From IMG/VR virus record IMGVR_UViG_3300034095_000325, positions 1 to 38,214 of that record: a stretch of 38,214 nucleotides of DNA; one strand, given 5' to 3'. This stretch comes from a virus. The notes under the pieces are model-generated. The model did no database searches. It saw only the letters and a program-made list of their open reading frames with translations, and was not told where the DNA came from. Positions 26,603 to 38,214 of the stretch are shown here, one piece after another; position 1 is the first letter of the stretch, and each line of letters begins with the position of its first letter. A program made the position numbers and the translations under genes.

Positions 26603-29600
26603 ATGATAGAGAATTTATTTACGTTTGTCCGAACGCTCGGCAATCAGCGCATACAGGGCAAAAAATTCTTTGTCACTCAGGTAGGTCTTCTCGGAACCGT
26701 TAGTGATAACTCCGGGTCAATTGGAACTGCTGGTAAGGTACTCTCTTCCACAGGTAGTGGGGTAAGCTGGATTACCGTTGGTACTGGCAGTAGTGACGTA
26801 GATGTTCTTAATGACCTAAGCGATGTGGTCATTAGCACTGCCACAGAGGGCCAATTGCTGCGTTTTAACGGCACTTCGTGGGTTAACTGGGCTCCTAACT
26901 TTCTAACGGGTTATGGCTCGTTAAATGACCTCTCTGACGTTACGTTGACCCTTCCGGTAAATGGCTCTAGGTTGGTGTATGTTAGTAGCACTGGACAGTG
27001 GATTGATGCAGCTCCATTAGCATTTGGCAAAATGTATTATGGGTCGGCTTTAGGAGACGCAGCCACTACATCAGTAATTACAAACGGAACAAAGCTGTCT
27101 ATTGGAACAGCCACGTTTTCAACAAACCTAAATGTAGGTCAAGTAGACATAACCACAGGTATTGCAGGTCAGGGCTCTATTCACATTGGGGCTATTCAAG
27201 ATGGCAGCACCTATTTATTGGCTTCAAATAATAAAATACAGGTAGGAAGTCAGACTGAAATGATTGCTCCCGGTGACCCCGGTGAAGAACCAACTCTTGC
27301 TTTTACATTTACTCCATCAACACTAAACATTCAACCGCTAGGTGGTGATACTGTCTTTGGTGGATATACTACAGCAACAGGATATAAGACACCAGCAGGA
27401 AATAGGCAAGAACTTTTAACTGCCGCTGGTACAAAAACATTAACAAATGGCGTACAGAACCTTCAAATTCTTCGGTGGATTCAACCACCCGGAGGGGTTG
27501 GAAACTGGCAGGCTGATGATGAAAATACCGCCTCGACACCAAACCTAGATGCTGTCACAGACGTTGGCAGCACAACCACAAACTCTATAACAGTAGGTAA
27601 TCTTTCTACATCTGGAACTGTTACCGCAGCCGTTGTCACTACGCCACTTATTGAGCGTGAGGGTGTCCTTACGATTAACAGCGAAGAGCAGATTGACCAA
27701 GGCGACCCCAATCCAAACTTGCTGTATGTCTCTTGGAATGGAGATAGGAAATTCGTTATAAATGCTGATGGTTATGCGATTGCAGACACTGGTTATAAGG
27801 TTGTTGGAGGCACTGCCTCTGGATTCCTAAAGGCTAACGGAACAATTGATACAAGCACATACCTAACCTCATATACAGAGACTCAGACCCTTGATGCTGT
27901 TACGGACCTAGGAAGCACAACCACAAACAACATAAGCGTTGGTGGACTAACTTCTACGTCTGTATCTACGCCAATCTTGCAATCAAATAGTGGTATTTTA
28001 ATAATTGACGCTGATGTCAATGGAGGTATTGAGCCGCAGCAGGGCGCCGCCGCTGAAACTATATTGTCTTTTGACTGGCAGGGCGATTCTCAGGGATATA
28101 TAGACACAGACGGGAAGATTACCTTCAACGGATTCAAGACACCAGCAGGCACAGCCTCTGGGTTCCTAAAGGCCAATGGAACGGTAGACACCAGTGCATA
28201 TATCACTGAAATAGAGTACCTTGACGACATTGGCGATGTAGCTCTAATTTCTCCGGCTACTGGAGACGTTTTGACGTTTGATGGTACTGAGTGGGTAAAC
28301 TCTCCAATCGACAGTGCCGACTACGTTTCCAAAGTACAGCACGAAGTAAAGGCTGGCGTTGCCATTACAAAAGGGCAAGCGTTATATGTTACTGGGGCAG
28401 ATGGCACAAATATAGTTGTAGGTAAAGCCTCAAACGTATCTGAAGCTATGTCTTCTAAGACCATAGGTCTTGCCGCCGCTTCTGCCGCAGTAAATGGTAA
28501 GTTTTTCGTAATTACCGAGGGTCTTCTTGCTGGATTAAATACATCTGCCGCTAACGTGGGTGATGCTGTTTGGTTGGGCGTAAATGGGGCTTTAATCTTT
28601 GGACTCACAAACAAACCTGTAGCTCCAGCGCACCTTGTTTATATTGGAGTTGTTACTCGTAAAAACGCAAACAACGGAGAGATTTTTATTAGTATACAGA
28701 ATGGCTTTGAGCTCAAAGAACTTCACGATGTACTTATCAATGGAGTTACTGCCGGACAGCTAATCAGAAGAGAGGCTGATGGTCTTTGGAAGAATTGGAC
28801 TCCAAACTATATCACCGCTAACAGCGCAGATACCTTACTCAATAAAACAATTCCTTTAGGAACTGGTATAGCCACTATAGTAAATATTGACTCAATAGAC
28901 CCATTTATTGGCGAGTCATACATACCTATTTATCAGGACGGGATAAATAAAGATGGGACAATATCTGTAGATTTAGAGGGCAGTATATCAATATCCAATC
29001 CAGGTATTGGCTATTACTCTGGTCAGGTAAATACAGAAGGTGGAAGTCGTTTCTTAATTACCATTACGGGTAATTTAGTTACAGGTACGTTATCCGAGTT
29101 TAACCAAGCGCTTACTGATGGAACATTTGCCACAGAGTCTTACGTTGGCACTCAAATATCTAATCTTGTAGACTCCGCTCCATCTACTCTTAACACCTTA
29201 AACGAACTTGCCGCTGCGCTTGGTGATGATGCAAACTTTGCAACAACTGTAACAACTAGCATTGCAACTAAGCAACCACAGCTCAATGGTACTGGCTTTG
29301 TAAAGGCATCTGGTACAACTATTAGCTACGACAATAACACCTACCTAACTTCTGAGTCGGACCCGTTATTTACCAGCAGTGCCGCTTATGAAATTACAGG
29401 TGAGAATCTATCGGAGTGGGGTCAGGCATACGGATGGGGAGACCACGCTACCCAAGGTTACCTGACTTCTGAGACAGACCCTGTATTTACAGCAAGTCCC
29501 GCCTATGGTATTGCGGAATCAAATATAACAAAATGGAACACGGCATACGGATGGGGAGACCATTCTACTTTTGGCTACCTGACTTCTTTACCTGCCCACA

Positions 29601-31624
29601 CACACGCAGCCTCCGACATTACATCCGGAACACTTTCCACAGATAGACTCCCAAAGCAAGAACTTGGTATTTCTATTGCGGGAAACTTTGGGCAGTGGGA
29701 GCCTCACGGAACATATACAAACTTTAACACTGACGTTGCATATTGGGGTTGGAGCTATGTTCAGGGTACTGGAAATGCTCCGCACACAACATCTTCACAA
29801 TGGTATCGTGGAAGGTTTAGCCTTGGCAGTCAGTATGGTTTGGGGTCAGGCGGTGGAGATTACTGGATGGAAATTGCCATTCCACGTTACAGTCAAGGCA
29901 ATAATGCCGGGAATCTTTTTGTAAGAACCGCTGAAGATGGAGTGGCAACCGCTTGGCAAGGTGTTCGTGGCGCATACTCAACAAATGCAGGCTACGCAAT
30001 ATCATCTGGTAACTCAGAAACCACAGACCAGACAGTATTTAGCACACTCTTTATTAATGACGCAGCGGTAGCTACTGAGCATTTCGTTACGAGTCAAGGT
30101 TATATTAATGGCGAATCTGACCCTGTCTTTACAGGAAGTGTTGCTTACACTATCACAAGTGAAAATATAACAAAATGGGATGAGGCTTATGGTTGGGGCA
30201 ATCACGCTGACTATGGATACATAGCCGGGGAGAGCGATACATTGGATACTGTTCTTTCTCGCGGCGCATCAACAACAAGAACTGCTGAGTTTTATCAAAC
30301 GTCAAATACTTTTATTAATACTGTAGCTGCAGGAAATAGAGGATTAACTGTCTTTCAAAATACCGCAGGTGCTGATGCCTATATTACTTTTCACATTGGT
30401 GGAGATTATGCAGGATACTTTGGATTAGGTGGGGCAGAAAACGACCTTGTTTGGGGCGGGTGGTCTGTAGGTAATGCTCGTCACAGAATCTTGCACTCTG
30501 GAAACTTTACTGACAATAGTGCCGACTGGAATGCTGCCTATGATTGGGGAAACCATTCTATTGTTGGATATCTTACCACTCTTCCAGCACACTCACATAC
30601 AATTGGTGATGTAACGGGTTTACAGACAGCACTAGACGGCAAGCTGTCAACTTCCGGTAAGGCTGCAGACTCTGAACTTATTGATGGAATTGACTCATCA
30701 AGCATTTTATGGGGCAATGCTAGGGGAACTAACGATTCACTTACAACGGATGCTGACGGATTAGATAAGACTGGTTTTTACACATCTAGTGGATTCGTAA
30801 CTAGACCAGAAGGTGTTGATAACTGGATGTACATACAGCACATTAAGCTGTACAACAGCAACTCCCACTACCAAAAACAAATTGGTTACGATACATACGA
30901 TGACCGTATGTGGGTTAGAACAAAAAGTGGAAACACTTGGAGTTCTTGGAAGGCTATCCTTACCAGTGAGAACATTGGAGAATATACTTTAACATCACTA
31001 CCTGCTCACACGCATACTATTGCTAACGTAACAGGATTGCAAACCGCCCTTGATGGAAAACTTAGTGCTGAATCTGATACGCTAGACAGTGTTACTGGAA
31101 GGGATGCTACTACCACAAATGCTATTACCGTAGGATTATTAATAGCCAAAGGTCCAGGAGGAAACTATAATGAAAACATTAGACTCCCAGGTTCAACTGC
31201 GGTAATATCATTTAACACAACAGGAGATACTGGTGTAGGTTCTTACAATATAGTTTCTCAGACTAACTTTCAAATAAGAAATGCTGAAGGTGCTCAAGTT
31301 TTCGTAATGAACCAATCGGGTGACCTAACTATTGGTGGCACATTCACGGAGCAGTCATCTATCCGATACAAGGAGAACGTAAAGTCTATACCTAGCGTAT
31401 CACAGAAGATGGAACAGCTTGACGCGGTTTCCTACAATAAGATTGGTAGCAACCAAGAGGAGATTGGTCTCATCGCAGAGGACGTAGCGGAGCTATTCCC
31501 AGAGGTGGTAAAATATGATAATGAGGGTAGGCCGGATGGTGTCAACTACTCTCGCCTAAGCGTAATTTTGCTGAAGGCAGTACAAGAATTAACGGAACGA
31601 GTAAACAAGTTAGAAAACAAGTAA
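26603..31624 (+). CDS. Giant tail fibre 1 with C-terminal S74-type chaperone
   Basis: A 1673-aa fibre. The N-terminal 1000 residues are repetitive: LNDLSDV units and LDAVTDxGSTTTN units (near 312, 430 and later). From about residue 925 there are AYGWGDH-x5-GYLTS repeats (39-residue period) and PAHTHT-x2-VTGLQTALDGKL repeats. Residues about 1585-1673 form an intramolecular chaperone of the endosialidase type: SSIRYKENVK with candidate catalytic Ser/Lys, YNKIGSNQEEIGLIAEDVAE, and a final coiled coil (VQELTERVNKLENK). Such chaperones trimerise the fibre and are cleaved off. It would determine host binding. Confidence 0.88.
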   Translation: MIENLFTFVRTLGNQRIQGKKFFVTQVGLLGTVSDNSGSIGTAGKVLSSTGSGVSWITVGTGSSDVDVLNDLSDVVISTATEGQLLRFNGTSWVNWAPNFLTGYGSLNDLSDVTLTLPVNGSRLVYVSSTGQWIDAAPLAFGKMYYGSALGDAATTSVITNGTKLSIGTATFSTNLNVGQVDITTGIAGQGSIHIGAIQDGSTYLLASNNKIQVGSQTEMIAPGDPGEEPTLAFTFTPSTLNIQPLGGDTVFGGYTTATGYKTPAGNRQELLTAAGTKTLTNGVQNLQILRWIQPPGGVGNWQADDENTASTPNLDAVTDVGSTTTNSITVGNLSTSGTVTAAVVTTPLIEREGVLTINSEEQIDQGDPNPNLLYVSWNGDRKFVINADGYAIADTGYKVVGGTASGFLKANGTIDTSTYLTSYTETQTLDAVTDLGSTTTNNISVGGLTSTSVSTPILQSNSGILIIDADVNGGIEPQQGAAAETILSFDWQGDSQGYIDTDGKITFNGFKTPAGTASGFLKANGTVDTSAYITEIEYLDDIGDVALISPATGDVLTFDGTEWVNSPIDSADYVSKVQHEVKAGVAITKGQALYVTGADGTNIVVGKASNVSEAMSSKTIGLAAASAAVNGKFFVITEGLLAGLNTSAANVGDAVWLGVNGALIFGLTNKPVAPAHLVYIGVVTRKNANNGEIFISIQNGFELKELHDVLINGVTAGQLIRREADGLWKNWTPNYITANSADTLLNKTIPLGTGIATIVNIDSIDPFIGESYIPIYQDGINKDGTISVDLEGSISISNPGIGYYSGQVNTEGGSRFLITITGNLVTGTLSEFNQALTDGTFATESYVGTQISNLVDSAPSTLNTLNELAAALGDDANFATTVTTSIATKQPQLNGTGFVKASGTTISYDNNTYLTSESDPLFTSSAAYEITGENLSEWGQAYGWGDHATQGYLTSETDPVFTASPAYGIAESNITKWNTAYGWGDHSTFGYLTSLPAHTHAASDITSGTLSTDRLPKQELGISIAGNFGQWEPHGTYTNFNTDVAYWGWSYVQGTGNAPHTTSSQWYRGRFSLGSQYGLGSGGGDYWMEIAIPRYSQGNNAGNLFVRTAEDGVATAWQGVRGAYSTNAGYAISSGNSETTDQTVFSTLFINDAAVATEHFVTSQGYINGESDPVFTGSVAYTITSENITKWDEAYGWGNHADYGYIAGESDTLDTVLSRGASTTRTAEFYQTSNTFINTVAAGNRGLTVFQNTAGADAYITFHIGGDYAGYFGLGGAENDLVWGGWSVGNARHRILHSGNFTDNSADWNAAYDWGNHSIVGYLTTLPAHSHTIGDVTGLQTALDGKLSTSGKAADSELIDGIDSSSILWGNARGTNDSLTTDADGLDKTGFYTSSGFVTRPEGVDNWMYIQHIKLYNSNSHYQKQIGYDTYDDRMWVRTKSGNTWSSWKAILTSENIGEYTLTSLPAHTHTIANVTGLQTALDGKLSAESDTLDSVTGRDATTTNAITVGLLIAKGPGGNYNENIRLPGSTAVISFNTTGDTGVGSYNIVSQTNFQIRNAEGAQVFVMNQSGDLTIGGTFTEQSSIRYKENVKSIPSVSQKMEQLDAVSYNKIGSNQEEIGLIAEDVAELFPEVVKYDNEGRPDGVNYSRLSVILLKAVQELTERVNKLENK
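29425..29562 (+). repeat. 117-bp repeat unit within fibre 1
   Basis: GGCATACGGATGGGGAGACC occurs identically at 29425 and 29542, a 117-base (39-codon) step; degenerate copies lie near 30184 and 30534. These encode the AYGWGDH repeats and are possible recombination points between fibre genes. Confidence 0.7.
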
Positions 31625-31625
31625 T

Positions 31626-34600
31626 ATGGCAAATCTTTTAAGTACCATTGTATCTGGCAGGCTATCAATGGGGTCGAATACGGCAACTCCATATTTAACA
31701 ACGGCTCCTGATGGAATCGTATTTGGAGGTAATGAGGTTGGAAATGCTTACAGATTATATACCGACCTTGAGAATATCGGAGGAAACTACACTAAGTTAA
31801 ATATAGCTTGGCACACCGGAATAAAGATTGGAGCACATTTAAATTATGGAGGAACTCGTTTTTATAACGACTCACCAGCCTCTGGAACTGAGATTTTTTC
31901 AGTAGGAAAAGGAGACTCAAATGTCCGTGTCGTCAATACTCTTTTTATTGGAGGAAACACAGCTATCCACGCAGGTAACATCGGTAGCCAATCGGTAAGT
32001 TATGCCTCAACATCAGGCACATTCTCAACAGACTGGACCAACTACAAAGGAGTCACTGAAAACGCGGTAGCTGGTGAGCTAATGTGGAAGAACTATGGTA
32101 ACAACCATACAATCTTCGATGCGTCTAACAGCACATCGCCAACAGGTTCTGCTGTAAATAATACGAATTCAGATATAGCTTGGACCGGAACATATCCTAC
32201 CCTTATGGGATGGAACGGTAATAGCACTTATGGTGTTAGGGTTGATAGCGCTAGGGTCGCCGATAGTGCAGGGGCAATAAGTGGTCTTGTCGTGGGTGAT
32301 TTTGTGAGAGCTTACCCTACGGGTGCTGGAAACATTGACTCCGACTGGGGACAGTCCTTTAAGACCTTTGACCCGATACCATCAGGGACACCGCCTTTAC
32401 AATCGCCCAATATAAGAACGATAAACATTGGCGATAGTTACGCTAGAAGAACGCAATTAGCATTTGATTACTCATCGGATGTTGCTTACTTTAGAAGAAG
32501 GACGGAAACTGGATGGTTTACTTGGAGAGAGTTTATTCACTCCGGTAACATTGCCTCTCAGTCCGTAAACTATGCAACTACGGCAGGGACACTAACCTCA
32601 ATAAATATATCTCAGTTTACAAACGACTCCGGGTATTTAACAAGTGCAACGGTTGGGAATATGACAAGACTGTGGGCAGAATCACATCCCACTGATTATT
32701 ATGTTAGGGCAAATTGGACAGGTACTTATTGGCAATTAACAAGTAATCACCCAAGTCCCGTTCAAGTAGGATATGCGGATAGTGCTGGAAGTGCAGGGGC
32801 AGTAGCCTGGGGAAATGTGTCTAGCAAGCCATCAAACATTATGTTTTACGAAGGCTTTACCCTTGACGCAAACACAATGAGCTCTAATTCTACTGGATTT
32901 ACATATTCAGTAAACGCTCCATTTACTGGTCCTATTGCTAGATTTAGTACCGGAGGTGGATATGATTTGTGGCTTGGTGGTTCATACAATGGAGGTGGAA
33001 ATACGTTTTTTCTTAGGACAAGAGATGGTGATGCTGCTACACTTAACCCTTGGAGGGAGATAATAACTTCAGGTAACATTGGTTCTCAGTCTGTAAGTAA
33101 TGCTACTACTGCTAATGGGGCAAATGGTAATTTCTATATTGATGATAACTATGGTAATACCGTAGTTGGTCTTTACGATTCTACAAGATATCAAGGAGTT
33201 TTTGCGATGGGTGACGCATATAAGTTACCAGCTAACGGAACAACGACAGGCTCCTTATATGGTCTCGCTTGGTCCCACCCTAACGCTGGTGGTGTAGCGG
33301 GCAACCTGAATACCCACGGCCTCCTTGTAATGGAGAACGGTACGTTCTTGGCTGCAATCTCTGGCTCTATTAGGTCTAGGGATGATATGCGTGCCCCAAT
33401 CTTCTACGATTCACAGGATACCGCATATTATGTAGACCCAAATGGTAATTCATACCTATCTACACTTCGTGTTGCAAACGCAAGTAGTGGAGTGTCTTTA
33501 CACGTTGGTCTTGGCTCAACTCACGGAGTTTACACTTTAGACGATGCTAGAAAGTATTTAGTTGTCTCTGCTGAATTTTACCCACATATGGCAATCGTTG
33601 CTAGTGGCTCAAACAACACAAATCACGGAGCCGTATTTTCTTTTGTTGGAACAGAGGGTAGTTCTCCAAGGCAATGGAACCTTGGAATTCCAAATCAGAA
33701 TCCGTTTATATTTAGCATTGGATATAATACAAATAACGATACAAATCCTCACTACGGTGTAGGAGACGGTTGGTCTAGTAATGATGCTGACCACGCAAGA
33801 TTAAGTATCGACAGAAGTGGAAATACGAAGATTCGTGGTATGCTCTATGTTAATGGTACAAGTGGCGGTATATCTACTGGTAGCGCCGTTATACACGCAG
33901 GTAACATCGGCTCTCAGTCAGTAGCCAGTGCAGGTAACGCTGATACTGTAGATGGTTTTCACGCATCGGTTGCTGGCACGGCAAATACAATACCAACAAG
34001 AAATAGCAGTGGATACCTTATCCCGGAAAACTGGATTCAGCTTAATGGTGCTTATGGACTATACTCTCCGACTAATGACGCTCACTTAAGACCTAATAGT
34101 GGGAGTTATGGCTCTTGGCTAGTAACAGGTTCTCGCAATAGTTGGAGGGGATTAGAGTTTGATTCAGGAAGCAACGGAAATGTTAGCCTTATGGTTAATG
34201 TAACTAGTAATACAACCGGATTTCATAACAATTCTTATGGATGGCAGTTCTATTGGGAGGGCGGTACGCTATATTGTTCTAAAAACGCCTATGGTGCTGG
34301 AACCAACGCCACGGTACTAGACTCAGTAAACTTTACAAATTACGCTTGGCCTTTAGAGGGTGGATGGAAACCCGCATCTTTAGCTTCATCAACAAGGCTT
34401 AGGGGAGCAACTTCCCCTGATGGTGGAGAATTTGCATTAGCCTATTCCGGAGGTCAGATACATCCATACGCGGATGGTTTCTTTTATCAAAACGAAGGTG
34501 CATACAGGGTTATTGACACAAATAGTGTAGGCTCTTACGCACCAACATTAACTGGTGGGGGAGCGTCGGGAAGTTGGGGAATTAGTGTTACGGGTTCAGC

Positions 34601-35465
34601 GGCAAGTTCCGGTCGCTCTTCATCACTTGATATTGTTGGATATGGGGATGGTAATATGACCTATTACCAATCATCAGGAACATTTGCTGGATATAGTGGA
34701 TGGGCAGGATATTTTATTTCGAACCACGGGAATGGTTCGAACTACTACAACCAGACCATCATTACGCCGTTCTGGAGTCCGCCTCAGTATTCAAGACTTC
34801 AAGGTGGAACCTTTGTTGGTCCGTACACTTTTTGGAGTACAGAGAACTTGAATGATTACGCACCGAATATGAACCAATACGTTCGTACTACGGATAACGT
34901 AACATTCAATACAACTACTTCTCCTACTATACTTGTAAACGGTCACTCGGATAATACCAAGGGATACCGTATCCACAACACTAGCGGAAGCTCCGTAAGT
35001 GCGATGTTTACCAACTCATCCAACCAGCTAGTAATAGCCGCAGGTGCAGTTGACCAAATAAACCTCAATAAGAAGGTATACGTAAACGGAGTGGCACTCG
35101 GTGTCAACGTGGCGCCATCAGCAACCGCTGGACGTATTGACGCATCCAATGACATCGTTGCATTCTCATCCTCTGACGAACGTCTTAAGGATAACATAAC
35201 ACCCATTGAGAACGCACTTGACAAAGTGAAGTCACTCACCGGAGTGGAGTTTGACTGGAAACCAGAACATAAGGAAGCACACGGACACGAAGGACACGAC
35301 ACGGGTATCATAGCCCAGCAAGTGTTAGGCGTTATGCCGTCTGCTGTTAGGACTAACGATACAGGCTACCTAGCCGTGCGTTACGAGAAGCTAATCGGTC
35401 TCCTGATTGAGGCCAACAAGGAGCTTGCAGCTCGCGTTGAGGAACTTGAAAAGAAGATTGGGTAA
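31626..35465 (+). CDS. Giant tail fibre 2 with C-terminal S74-type chaperone
   Basis: A 1279-aa fibre starting one base after the previous stop. It carries at least four copies of a (H/T)(A/S)GNI(G/A)SQSV unit (beginning near 31967, 32537, 33066 and 33892) between variable, Gly/Ser/Asn-rich beta segments such as WYTW-like W-x-T-W repeats and a TAYYVDPNGNSYLSTLRV segment common in fibres. The last 95 residues are an S74 chaperone: SSDERLKDNI (Ser and Lys for autocleavage), VEFDWKPEHKEAHGHEGHDT with a His-rich loop, GIIAQQVLGVMP and a terminal coiled coil (ELAARVEELEKKIG). It likely pairs with fibre 1 for host recognition. Confidence 0.86.
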   Translation: MANLLSTIVSGRLSMGSNTATPYLTTAPDGIVFGGNEVGNAYRLYTDLENIGGNYTKLNIAWHTGIKIGAHLNYGGTRFYNDSPASGTEIFSVGKGDSNVRVVNTLFIGGNTAIHAGNIGSQSVSYASTSGTFSTDWTNYKGVTENAVAGELMWKNYGNNHTIFDASNSTSPTGSAVNNTNSDIAWTGTYPTLMGWNGNSTYGVRVDSARVADSAGAISGLVVGDFVRAYPTGAGNIDSDWGQSFKTFDPIPSGTPPLQSPNIRTINIGDSYARRTQLAFDYSSDVAYFRRRTETGWFTWREFIHSGNIASQSVNYATTAGTLTSINISQFTNDSGYLTSATVGNMTRLWAESHPTDYYVRANWTGTYWQLTSNHPSPVQVGYADSAGSAGAVAWGNVSSKPSNIMFYEGFTLDANTMSSNSTGFTYSVNAPFTGPIARFSTGGGYDLWLGGSYNGGGNTFFLRTRDGDAATLNPWREIITSGNIGSQSVSNATTANGANGNFYIDDNYGNTVVGLYDSTRYQGVFAMGDAYKLPANGTTTGSLYGLAWSHPNAGGVAGNLNTHGLLVMENGTFLAAISGSIRSRDDMRAPIFYDSQDTAYYVDPNGNSYLSTLRVANASSGVSLHVGLGSTHGVYTLDDARKYLVVSAEFYPHMAIVASGSNNTNHGAVFSFVGTEGSSPRQWNLGIPNQNPFIFSIGYNTNNDTNPHYGVGDGWSSNDADHARLSIDRSGNTKIRGMLYVNGTSGGISTGSAVIHAGNIGSQSVASAGNADTVDGFHASVAGTANTIPTRNSSGYLIPENWIQLNGAYGLYSPTNDAHLRPNSGSYGSWLVTGSRNSWRGLEFDSGSNGNVSLMVNVTSNTTGFHNNSYGWQFYWEGGTLYCSKNAYGAGTNATVLDSVNFTNYAWPLEGGWKPASLASSTRLRGATSPDGGEFALAYSGGQIHPYADGFFYQNEGAYRVIDTNSVGSYAPTLTGGGASGSWGISVTGSAASSGRSSSLDIVGYGDGNMTYYQSSGTFAGYSGWAGYFISNHGNGSNYYNQTIITPFWSPPQYSRLQGGTFVGPYTFWSTENLNDYAPNMNQYVRTTDNVTFNTTTSPTILVNGHSDNTKGYRIHNTSGSSVSAMFTNSSNQLVIAAGAVDQINLNKKVYVNGVALGVNVAPSATAGRIDASNDIVAFSSSDERLKDNITPIENALDKVKSLTGVEFDWKPEHKEAHGHEGHDTGIIAQQVLGVMPSAVRTNDTGYLAVRYEKLIGLLIEANKELAARVEELEKKIG

Positions 35466-36654: not shown

Positions 36655-36816
36655 GTGAAGCCCGATTCCACAGAAGCTATTGCCACCACTTGGAGCCTTA
36701 CGGCAAGTGGAGTATTGCTCACCCAGCTACAATCCATTCTTGGGTTGGTTGTACTAGTTTTGTCCTTAGCGTACACCCTATGGCGGTGGCACAGGGATAT
36801 AAAGATTGGTAAGTGA
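36655..36816 (+). CDS. Putative holin-like membrane protein 1 (53 aa, GTG start)
   Basis: A short frame from GTG 36655 to TGA 36816, with no ATG available. One strong membrane segment (ILGLVVLVLSLAYTLWRW, residues about 26-43) is followed by a short basic tail (HRDIKIGK), giving an N-out, C-in topology. It is the first gene after the terminator and is coupled by GTGA to a second membrane protein, directly upstream of the endolysin. Size and topology fit a small holin or holin partner. Holin families are too diverse for a firm family name. Confidence 0.65.
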   Translation: MKPDSTEAIATTWSLTASGVLLTQLQSILGLVVLVLSLAYTLWRWHRDIKIGK

Positions 36817-37001
36817 TTAAGCGAATCTTCGAGAGTCCAAAGACCACAATACTTGGTCTAATTGTAATAGCGCTTTGTTTTGTGTTAGTTTTCCTAGAGA
36901 AGGCTACGCTTACAGAGCTGTCGTTGTTTATGGTTGGTGGATTTTCTATGTTATTTCTAAAAGACGATGTCAGCGAAACTAAAAAGCCAGACGGCAAGTA
37001 G
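36813..37001 (+). CDS. Putative holin-like membrane protein 2 (62 aa, GTG start)
   Basis: A 62-aa protein starting at a GTG that overlaps the previous stop. Two hydrophobic segments, TTILGLIVIALCFVLVFL (11-28) and ELSLFMVGGFSMLFL (35-49), are joined by a short charged turn, followed by a charged tail (KDDVSETKKPDGK). The two-segment topology with a hydrophilic C-terminus is that of class II holins. With the 53-aa protein upstream it may form a holin pair, or a holin and antiholin. Confidence 0.7.
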   Translation: MIKRIFESPKTTILGLIVIALCFVLVFLEKATLTELSLFMVGGFSMLFLKDDVSETKKPDGK

Positions 37002-37366: not shown

Positions 37367-37801
37367 ATGAAACTATCAGAAAACTTCAGCCTTGAAGAGC
37401 TTAGTAAAACCTCTACTGGTTTAGATAACACTCCAAACAAAGAGCAGATAGAAAACCTCCGGCAGTTAGCTATTAACGTACTACAGCCAGCTAGGGATGC
37501 CCTTGGTCCGATTAAGGTTACCAGCGCCTTCAGAGCGCCTGCCGTCAATTCAAAGGTGGGTGGGGCATCAAGCAGCCAACATACAAAGGGAGAAGCGGCT
37601 GACCTTATGATGTCAGGAGGCCAGAAAAAGCTCTTAGAATGGATTATTGCCAACGTAGAGTTCGACCAGATAATCTCTGAGTTTCCTGATGCAAATGGCA
37701 ACCCTCAGTGGGTTCACGTTAGCTACAGAGAAGGCAGCAACCGCAACCAAAAACTTAAAGCAATAAAGTCAAACGGCAAAACTAAATATGTACCTTTATG
37801 A
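37367..37801 (+). CDS. Endolysin, M15-family zinc peptidase
   Basis: A 144-aa peptidase of the M15 type (D-Ala-D-Ala carboxypeptidase-like / L-Ala-D-Glu endopeptidase). LSENFSLEELSKTSTGL opens the protein. VTSAFRAPAVNSKVGGASSS then QHTKGEAADL gives zinc ligands H72 and D79, and WVHVSY provides H117. All expected metal ligands are present. There is no signal peptide, so release probably depends on the two membrane proteins upstream. It would cleave cell-wall peptides. The stop overlaps the next ORF as ATGA. Confidence 0.92.
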   Translation: MKLSENFSLEELSKTSTGLDNTPNKEQIENLRQLAINVLQPARDALGPIKVTSAFRAPAVNSKVGGASSSQHTKGEAADLMMSGGQKKLLEWIIANVEFDQIISEFPDANGNPQWVHVSYREGSNRNQKLKAIKSNGKTKYVPL

Positions 37802-37902
37802 GCGACAACAACTTTGATAACTGGCTAAATGAACTTGAAGAAAAACCACAACCTATCTGTAGCATCGATAATCCTGACGGCTGCGATTCTTGCGGCAGTT
37901 AG
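37798..37902 (+). CDS. Small acidic Cys-containing ORF (34 aa), overlapping the spanin
   Basis: ATG 37798 overlaps the endolysin stop as ATGA and the frame ends at TAG 37902. The peptide is acidic (MSDNNFDNWLNELEEKPQP) and ends with three cysteines in CSIDNPDGCDSCGS. Its last 74 bases overlap the start of the spanin-like gene in another frame. It may be a short lysis accessory peptide, or only a translational coupling device for the downstream gene. Existence is moderately supported by the overlap. Confidence 0.5.
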   Translation: MSDNNFDNWLNELEEKPQPICSIDNPDGCDSCGS

Positions 37903-38214
37903 TGGATGCCGTACTGCTCAACCTATCCTAGAGAGTGTAACTGTTCGGGACACGGTAATTGTAACCAAAGAGCGACTCCTAACGGACACGCTGCTCCTGT
38001 ACAAAGACACGACAATATATCAAGAAAAAGTAAGTCTAAAGATTGAATATATCGATAGGTTTGTCAAGGTAAAGGTTGTCTGTCCACCAGACACCATCAG
38101 GCTTACAACGGTAAAAGTTGTTACCAAGACTCAGGTAGTAAAAGAAAATCGATTTGCAGAAAGCATAAAGTCGCTATCTGTGCTTTTTTTGATTATCTTT
38201 ACAGGACTAGTGGT
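37829..38214 (+). CDS. Candidate unimolecular spanin (lipoprotein with C-terminal membrane segment), partial
   Basis: A frame from ATG 37829 open to the window end (128 codons). The N-terminus is a lipoprotein signal: basic MNLKKNHNLS, hydrophobic ASIILTAAILAA and lipobox AVSGC with C27. A periplasmic strand/coil-like segment follows (residues 28-110, mostly Val/Thr/Lys). A hydrophobic segment begins near 114 (KSLSVLFLIIFTGLV) and continues past the edge. An outer-membrane lipid anchor plus a C-terminal inner-membrane anchor defines unimolecular spanins, as in phage T1. Gene order after holin and endolysin supports this. The C-terminus must be seen to confirm. Confidence 0.72.
   Translation, partial: MNLKKNHNLSVASIILTAAILAAVSGCRTAQPILESVTVRDTVIVTKERLLTDTLLLYKDTTIYQEKVSLKIEYIDRFVKVKVVCPPDTIRLTTVKVVTKTQVVKENRFAESIKSLSVLFLIIFTGLV

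Follow-up and report, generated by a model that had tools for sequence, protein, structure and literature searches.

A unimolecular spanin (u-spanin) is defined in a 2018 survey as a single protein that combines a lipoylation signal at its N-terminus with a transmembrane (TM) segment at its C-terminus; T1 gp11 is the prototype, and according to the survey none of its 58 u-spanins in 13 families has a periplasmic cysteine (PMC6139136). A 2025 survey states that the unimolecular type is the only one used by Bacteroidetes phages (PMC12596118), and u-spanins are annotated in the flavophages Ingeline and Nekkels (PMC8776804). A spanin of this type in the phage studied here is thus expected in kind, and the view in the original prediction that such proteins are poorly characterised in Bacteroidota phages needs correcting, since the type had already been reported. 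The second known system of relevance is class I ribonucleotide reductase (RNR). Its tails have no ordered structure and in most cases terminate with a CXXC pair by which the active site is reduced (PMC9669993).

The DNA analyzed here, hereafter the window, is an entire virus record, linear and 38,214 bases long (IMG/VR IMGVR_UViG_3300034095_000325). The portal protein matched four phage records only, all from Nonlabens (Flavobacteriia) phages and at 21% identity, and a Shine-Dalgarno-like motif was found upstream of 0 of the 36 gene starts tested in the window. Shine-Dalgarno motifs are largely absent from Bacteroidota, and both observations indicate that the host of this tailed phage is probably a member of the Bacteroidota. 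The terminase and the endolysin have matches in many phages of other hosts and are therefore uninformative in this respect. A related record of 43.4 kb, L003, is nearly collinear with the window, as read from the ORF positions, and its segment 787-3289 bridges the window ends (1-298 and 37829-38214), which are separated by some 1.8 kb. A permuted genome of about 40 kb is therefore probable. Two long ORFs in the window (26603-31624 and 31626-35465) are tail-fibre-like, with ends that we take to resemble intramolecular chaperone domains.

By architecture, the window spanin is similar to T1 gp11 in its N-terminal lipoprotein signal, possibly beta-prone linker, C-terminal TM segment and position as the last gene of the cassette, but differs in having an invariant periplasmic cysteine, a signal peptide overprinted on another gene and an M15 endolysin. 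With the u-spanins of the Bacteroidetes phages, including Ingeline and Nekkels, it shares the probable host phylum and the one-protein design, a likeness drawn from their descriptions. The nested Rz/Rz1 genes of lambda are also comparable in that they overlap out of frame within a lysis cassette, whereas the overlapped partner in the window is no subunit of a spanin and has neither a signal peptide nor a TM segment.

Similarity of the micro-protein to the RNR alpha tail

The overlapped partner is a micro-ORF (37798..37902, + strand) for a protein of 34 amino acids with three cysteines, in which an amphipathic helix is followed by a C-terminal CSIDNPDGCDSCGS, like the redox tail of class I RNR alpha. 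AlphaFold predicted one helix at residues 3-15 with a pLDDT of about 86, the tail being less certain. The acidic, aromatic N-terminus may resemble the C-termini of RNR beta.

A profile of 14 micro-proteins was searched against the PDB, and the best four matches were all to RNR alpha, each at its C-terminus (E 0.1-0.51), including yeast Rnr1 at residues 873-888 (E 0.1) and the Pseudomonas-type NrdA 5im3 at residues 946-962 (E 0.51). The same four RNR alpha proteins were recovered as the best matches with a profile of 44 diverse micro-proteins (E 0.05-0.31). With the 14 micro-proteins, a single NCBIfam family was identified, RNR alpha NF005544, the match covering its positions 940-964 of 965 (4/14 micro-proteins, E 0.11-0.25), while 3 of the 44 micro-proteins matched this family at E<=1 and one match to a selenoprotein model was obtained (E 0.061). 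A tblastn search with the micro-protein in 50,697 phage records retrieved five records, of which the best two, H2 and H3 (E 0.1 and 0.4), translate into RNR alpha proteins that end with CSIDNPDDCIACGS and CSLDNPDDCLACGS, respectively, immediately before the stop codon; the remaining three (E 4-5) look like chance. Searches of the micro-ORF against PHROGs gave nothing convincing. A search of plasmids for copies of the micro-ORF gave only two weak matches, in Cupriavidus (E 7), which were taken as chance.

Viral contigs were also scanned with a degenerate DNA pattern for the C-terminus of the micro-protein plus the stop codon, which gave at least 119 matches. Those listed consisted of 14 RNR alpha C-termini, 105 free-standing micro-ORFs and no other protein; as the motif is imposed by the pattern, it is the lack of a third protein class among the matches listed that is informative. 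Some of the 14 RNR C-termini listed are cut by the contig end, and the shortest, with 34 amino acids (L175), was called by its YSDL linker. The helix motif was present in 104 of the 105 free-standing micro-ORFs listed, the exception being L240, which holds part of it only, and an ATG start was identified in 87, a TTG or GTG start only in 17 and no start in one.

The tails of yeast Rnr1, 5im3 and the viral RNR alpha proteins of L141, L157 and L214 have in common with the micro-protein the motif C-x-I-D-N-P-x(1-2)-C-x-x-C, followed by G-S or S-G and the end of the protein. The micro-proteins differ from these tails in that they are free-standing, with a length of 32-50 amino acids, a start codon of their own and an amphipathic helix, and reside in records that, where tested, lack RNR alpha. 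Of the features that characterize class I RNR alpha, the micro-protein thus displays the C-terminal redox tail with CxxC, by tail similarity only, and with its 34 amino acids lacks the catalytic barrel (PF02867). The accessible parts of the literature searched did not describe any RNR tail protein that stands alone.

The similarity extends over about 14 residues only, with E-values of 0.05-0.5 against RNR in single searches, and RNR genes are absent from the same records, as might be expected if the micro-protein had converged on a short acidic cysteine motif, for example that of a metal-binding or virion peptide. Against such a convergence, which we consider somewhat unlikely, the exact C-terminus was matched in the PDB, in NCBIfam and in phage records, no third type of protein with the motif was seen among the 119 matches listed, and a stretch of 14 residues is identical in the micro-ORF of L200 and the RNR alpha protein of L157. 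As judged from these sequence comparisons, the micro-protein very probably resembles the RNR tail beyond chance.

Distribution and possible role of the micro-protein

Among the matches listed, 89 of the 105 free-standing copies are distinct in their surroundings. Genes for a spanin or a holin lie next to most of the 105 copies: 54 overlap with a u-spanin-like ORF, 42 in frame +1 and 12 in frame +2, another three overlap with a lipoprotein ORF that is cut by the contig end, and 17 are adjoined by a three-TM (3TM) holin-like ORF. The holin-like class was recognised through a short sequence pattern and may include too many members. The remaining 31 copies have no recognised lysis gene alongside. 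Two of the holin examples were checked, one of which scored above the Pfam cut-off for GTA_holin_3TM while the other, L144, matched the phrog_3427 holin (E 1.3e-17). In L144, L171 and their relatives, the gene that follows the micro-ORF is the 3TM holin-like one instead of a spanin gene. Micro-ORFs without a spanin overlap were found near tail-fibre-like, Cpn10-like, methyltransferase-like or PhoH-like ORFs, of which the Cpn10-like protein scored just under the Pfam cut-off and the others were named by eye. In L109 (60-767), a frame that by eye is GIY-YIG-like directly follows and overlaps with the micro-ORF and precedes a Cpn10-like gene. The stand-alone copies suggest that the mini-gene may be older and that the signal peptide of the spanin was overprinted on it.

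RNR alpha (PF02867) was identified in none of 22 records, including the window, and in none of 19 further micro-ORF records, while all three RNR-tail controls were positive; the records may be fragments. The absence is firmer for the window phage because PF02867 is lacking both from the window and from L003, which covers the gap between the window ends. We also searched 21 records, comprising the window, 18 micro-ORF records and the controls G041 and G042, in which RNR beta was identified in both controls only, thioredoxin scored above the cut-off in control G042 only, with sub-threshold matches in G023 and G030, and glutaredoxin was found in none.

The mini-protein would be located in the cytoplasm of the host and could serve as a substrate or decoy for thioredoxin and glutaredoxin or for the active site of the host RNR. 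In such a scheme, the helix would provide docking and the tail the redox function: the tail would be reduced by thioredoxin or glutaredoxin and either enter the active site of the host RNR alpha or compete for the donors. A trans action of the mini-protein on RNR or on the donors of the enzyme is a tentative proposal. The broader reading, in which many phages carry an RNR tail as a separate mini-protein with the host enzyme or its thioredoxin and glutaredoxin donors as targets in trans, and in which the signal peptide of the u-spanin in lysis cassettes arose by overprinting, is to our minds possible, somewhat short of probable.

The position in a late operon is odd for a function in the supply of dNTPs. 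It would be more in line with a micro-protein that blocks the host RNR or deprives this enzyme of thioredoxin, in the manner of the small disordered inhibitors of yeast, but phages usually raise the supply of dNTPs, and we find a block of this kind rather unlikely. Sml1 is one such small RNR inhibitor in yeast. Another, Hug1, is described in PMC4245953.

Coding status of the overlapping frames

The start codon of the micro-ORF forms an ATGA overlap with the stop codon of the endolysin gene, the start codon of the spanin gene sits inside the micro-ORF, and the micro-ORF stops 4 nt upstream of the codon for the lipobox cysteine. By these coordinates, the micro-ORF and the spanin signal peptide share 74 nt (37829..37902, + strand) in different frames. 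The gene order suggests that translation may be coupled from the endolysin to the micro-ORF and from the micro-ORF to the spanin. Gene callers would easily miss the mini-gene since it is short and overlaps with the next gene.

The third codon position of the micro-ORF corresponds to the second codon position of the spanin gene. We counted parsimony changes along the tree of 89 loci that have the spanin in frame +1 and obtained 69, 73 and 183 changes at positions 1, 2 and 3 of the micro-ORF in the 19 overlap codons; the counts are unequal with a chi-square p of 1.7e-17, which is descriptive only since the sites share one tree. Beyond the stop codon of the micro-ORF, there were 777, 434 and 1695 changes at positions 1, 2 and 3 of the spanin codons in the same loci. 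These counts indicate that both frames are coding, and that the micro-protein is the more constrained of the two within the overlap. The pattern used to select the 89 loci contains the stop codon, which is therefore conserved in this set by construction, and many of the loci were first found via the spanin. In 50 distinct sequences, consisting of the window and 49 relatives, the stop codon of the micro-ORF was kept in 49.

The micro-ORF is coding, which we regard as practically certain, and the cysteine-rich micro-ORF that had been noted in another frame, partly overlapping the spanin gene, is thus a real gene (37798-37902+). The possibility that it represents a shadow of the signal peptide was rejected by the codon-position counts. 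That it is a mere leader for translational coupling to the spanin, with a peptide of no role of its own, would agree with the ATGA overlap and the internal spanin start, but is very unlikely given that the micro frame is conserved at the amino-acid level and that many other contigs have the peptide without an overlapping lipoprotein ORF.

The sole loss of the stop codon among the 50 sequences was observed in L028 (spanin at 1663-2067), in which it is replaced by TGG and the frame continues into a cysteine-rich shadow frame. In the window, this second cysteine-rich frame (37906-38046) was rejected as a gene and is considered a shadow of the spanin, with 250, 119 and 566 changes at spanin codon positions 1, 2 and 3 in the first 46 codons past the micro-ORF stop. 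L029, L034 and L050 have a TAA stop codon in place of TAG and VANGC in place of AVSGC at the lipobox, and the micro-protein still ends with CGS.

The spanin and its lysis cassette

The spanin gene is the final gene of a cassette that also contains two holin-like genes and an M15 endolysin gene, a location in agreement with that of unimolecular spanins. The two small hydrophobic ORFs of 53 amino acids (36655..36816, + strand) and 62 amino acids (36813..37001, + strand) are holin-like by position and, for the former, by one TM segment. No convincing family match to Pfam or PHROGs was obtained for the 53-residue protein, while the 62-residue protein matched phrog_5595 (unknown function, E 7.2e-08). 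The two ORFs overlap and look like a holin pair, and the second of them, the phrog_5595 type, recurs in L027. The endolysin (37367..37801, + strand) was identified as a Peptidase_M15_3 (Pfam PF08291, E 2.9e-19; phrog_894 endolysin, E 3.2e-38). In L027, it is replaced by an Amidase_2 endolysin (Pfam E 7.1e-15), which is still followed by the micro-ORF and the spanin.

The spanin gene (37829..38214, + strand) has 128 of about 137 codons, corresponding to about the 5' 93% of the gene, within the window; the ORF (37829-38212+) starts with ATG and runs past the window end, its own stop codon being located outside the record. The product begins with MNLKKNHNLSVASIILTAAILAAVSGC and continues with RTAQPI, and displays a basic n-region, a hydrophobic stretch and the lipobox AVSGC, in this order. 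This type II signal peptide (37829..37909, + strand) includes the lipobox cysteine at residue 27 (codon 37907-37909). A hydrophobic run begins near residue 115, and the start of the C-terminal TM segment (38171..38214, + strand), which is cut by the window edge, is supported by relatives, AlphaFold and hydropathy.

Since the record stops at the window edge, the C-terminus was studied in relatives. A search in IMG/VR identified 61 stretches that match the pattern, and 55 of the loci encode a relative of the spanin. Those in L002-L005 are complete, with 137 amino acids and 95-98% identity to the window spanin, and end with SLSMLFLIIFTGLVVIWLVKLTK or close variants, so that a single C-terminal hydrophobic segment is followed by a short KLTK tail and the stop codon. 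The remaining complete relatives have 130-140 amino acids and a C-terminus of KRWVDKLTE or similar. The mean column identity in the 45 distinct complete spanins is 77%, and the lipobox cysteine is kept in all of them (45/45). The Kyte-Doolittle hydropathy of the L002 spanin, in windows of 19 residues, has a maximum of 2.58 over residues 115-133, as compared to 0.79 in the periplasmic part. The latter consists of about 80 residues, of which 46% are V, I, Y, F, W or T. AlphaFold, run on the 45 sequences, gave a mean pLDDT of 47 and no confident fold for the periplasmic part, and was confident only for a C-terminal helix at residues 108-136, with a block of pLDDT about 70-88 from residue 111.

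The original prediction was that the lipobox and the downstream hydrophobic segment of this protein suggest a unimolecular spanin; it asked whether the protein ends shortly after the membrane segment beyond position 38214, and took a long cytoplasmic domain or the lack of a real TM segment as evidence to the contrary. The relatives bear this out: in proteins with up to 98% identity the chain ends shortly after the TM segment, with no long cytoplasmic domain. Both membrane signals are located within one protein, which differs from the two-component (i-/o-) spanins, and the product of the micro-ORF is acidic and, by eye, without a hydrophobic segment. With its type II signal peptide, possibly beta-prone linker, C-terminal TM segment, short charged tail and place in the cassette, the protein is best read as a unimolecular spanin, and we consider it very likely that ORF 37829-38214 is a genuine one.

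No family in Pfam or PHROGs labels the protein as a spanin; matches were weak only, the best in PHROGs being phrog_20260 (unknown function, E 0.00074), which was obtained for 16 of the 45 members. Likewise, neither the window spanin nor the diverged spanin of L153 had a tblastn match at E<=1 in the 50,697 phage records, and scans of genome contigs for host genomes that encode the spanin or the micro-protein found none. The missing library label would be compatible with a phage lipoprotein of another kind (o-spanin-like, for superinfection exclusion or from the virion) in which the C-terminal helix is incidental, but this is very unlikely as the lipobox and the C-terminal TM helix co-occur in complete relatives and the gene directly follows the endolysin gene even when the type of endolysin changes.

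The surface-export motif of Bacteroidetes lipoproteins is given as K-(D/E)2 or SDDDD/SDDFE in PMC5080379. Neither form is present in the mature N-terminus of the spanin, CRTAQPI, and the mature protein should therefore face the periplasm. As a unimolecular spanin, and in line with the standard model for such proteins, it would be attached to the outer membrane by its lipid anchor and to the inner membrane by its C-terminal helix, with the possibly beta-prone linker of about 80 residues crossing the periplasm. Once the wall has been removed by the holin and the M15 endolysin, the linker would collapse and the two membranes would presumably fuse.

The periplasmic part contains a cysteine, Cys85 (38081..38083, + strand), in the motif VVCPPDTIR, which is kept in 45/45 complete relatives and in 88/89 frame +1 loci. 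Diverged spanins beside the same micro-ORF (L153, L216, L238, L177 and L193) also carry C-P-x-D-T. The absence of periplasmic cysteines is a regularity of the 2018 survey that lies outside the definition of a u-spanin, and the conserved Cys85 is a departure from the u-spanins surveyed. It may form a disulfide between two spanin molecules, and being invariant, it offers a direct test of covalent dimerisation in one-piece spanins.

On its own, the spanin adds one slightly atypical example to an established class, and the micro-ORF is the more surprising half of the locus. If our reading is correct, the same 74 nt specify a redox motif in one frame and a lipoprotein signal in the other, and the mini-protein, with its roughly 35 residues, would be widespread in phages and mimic the functional end of a host enzyme that is essential. 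It would then provide phages that lack RNR genes with a new means of intervening in dNTP synthesis or in the redox state of thiols.
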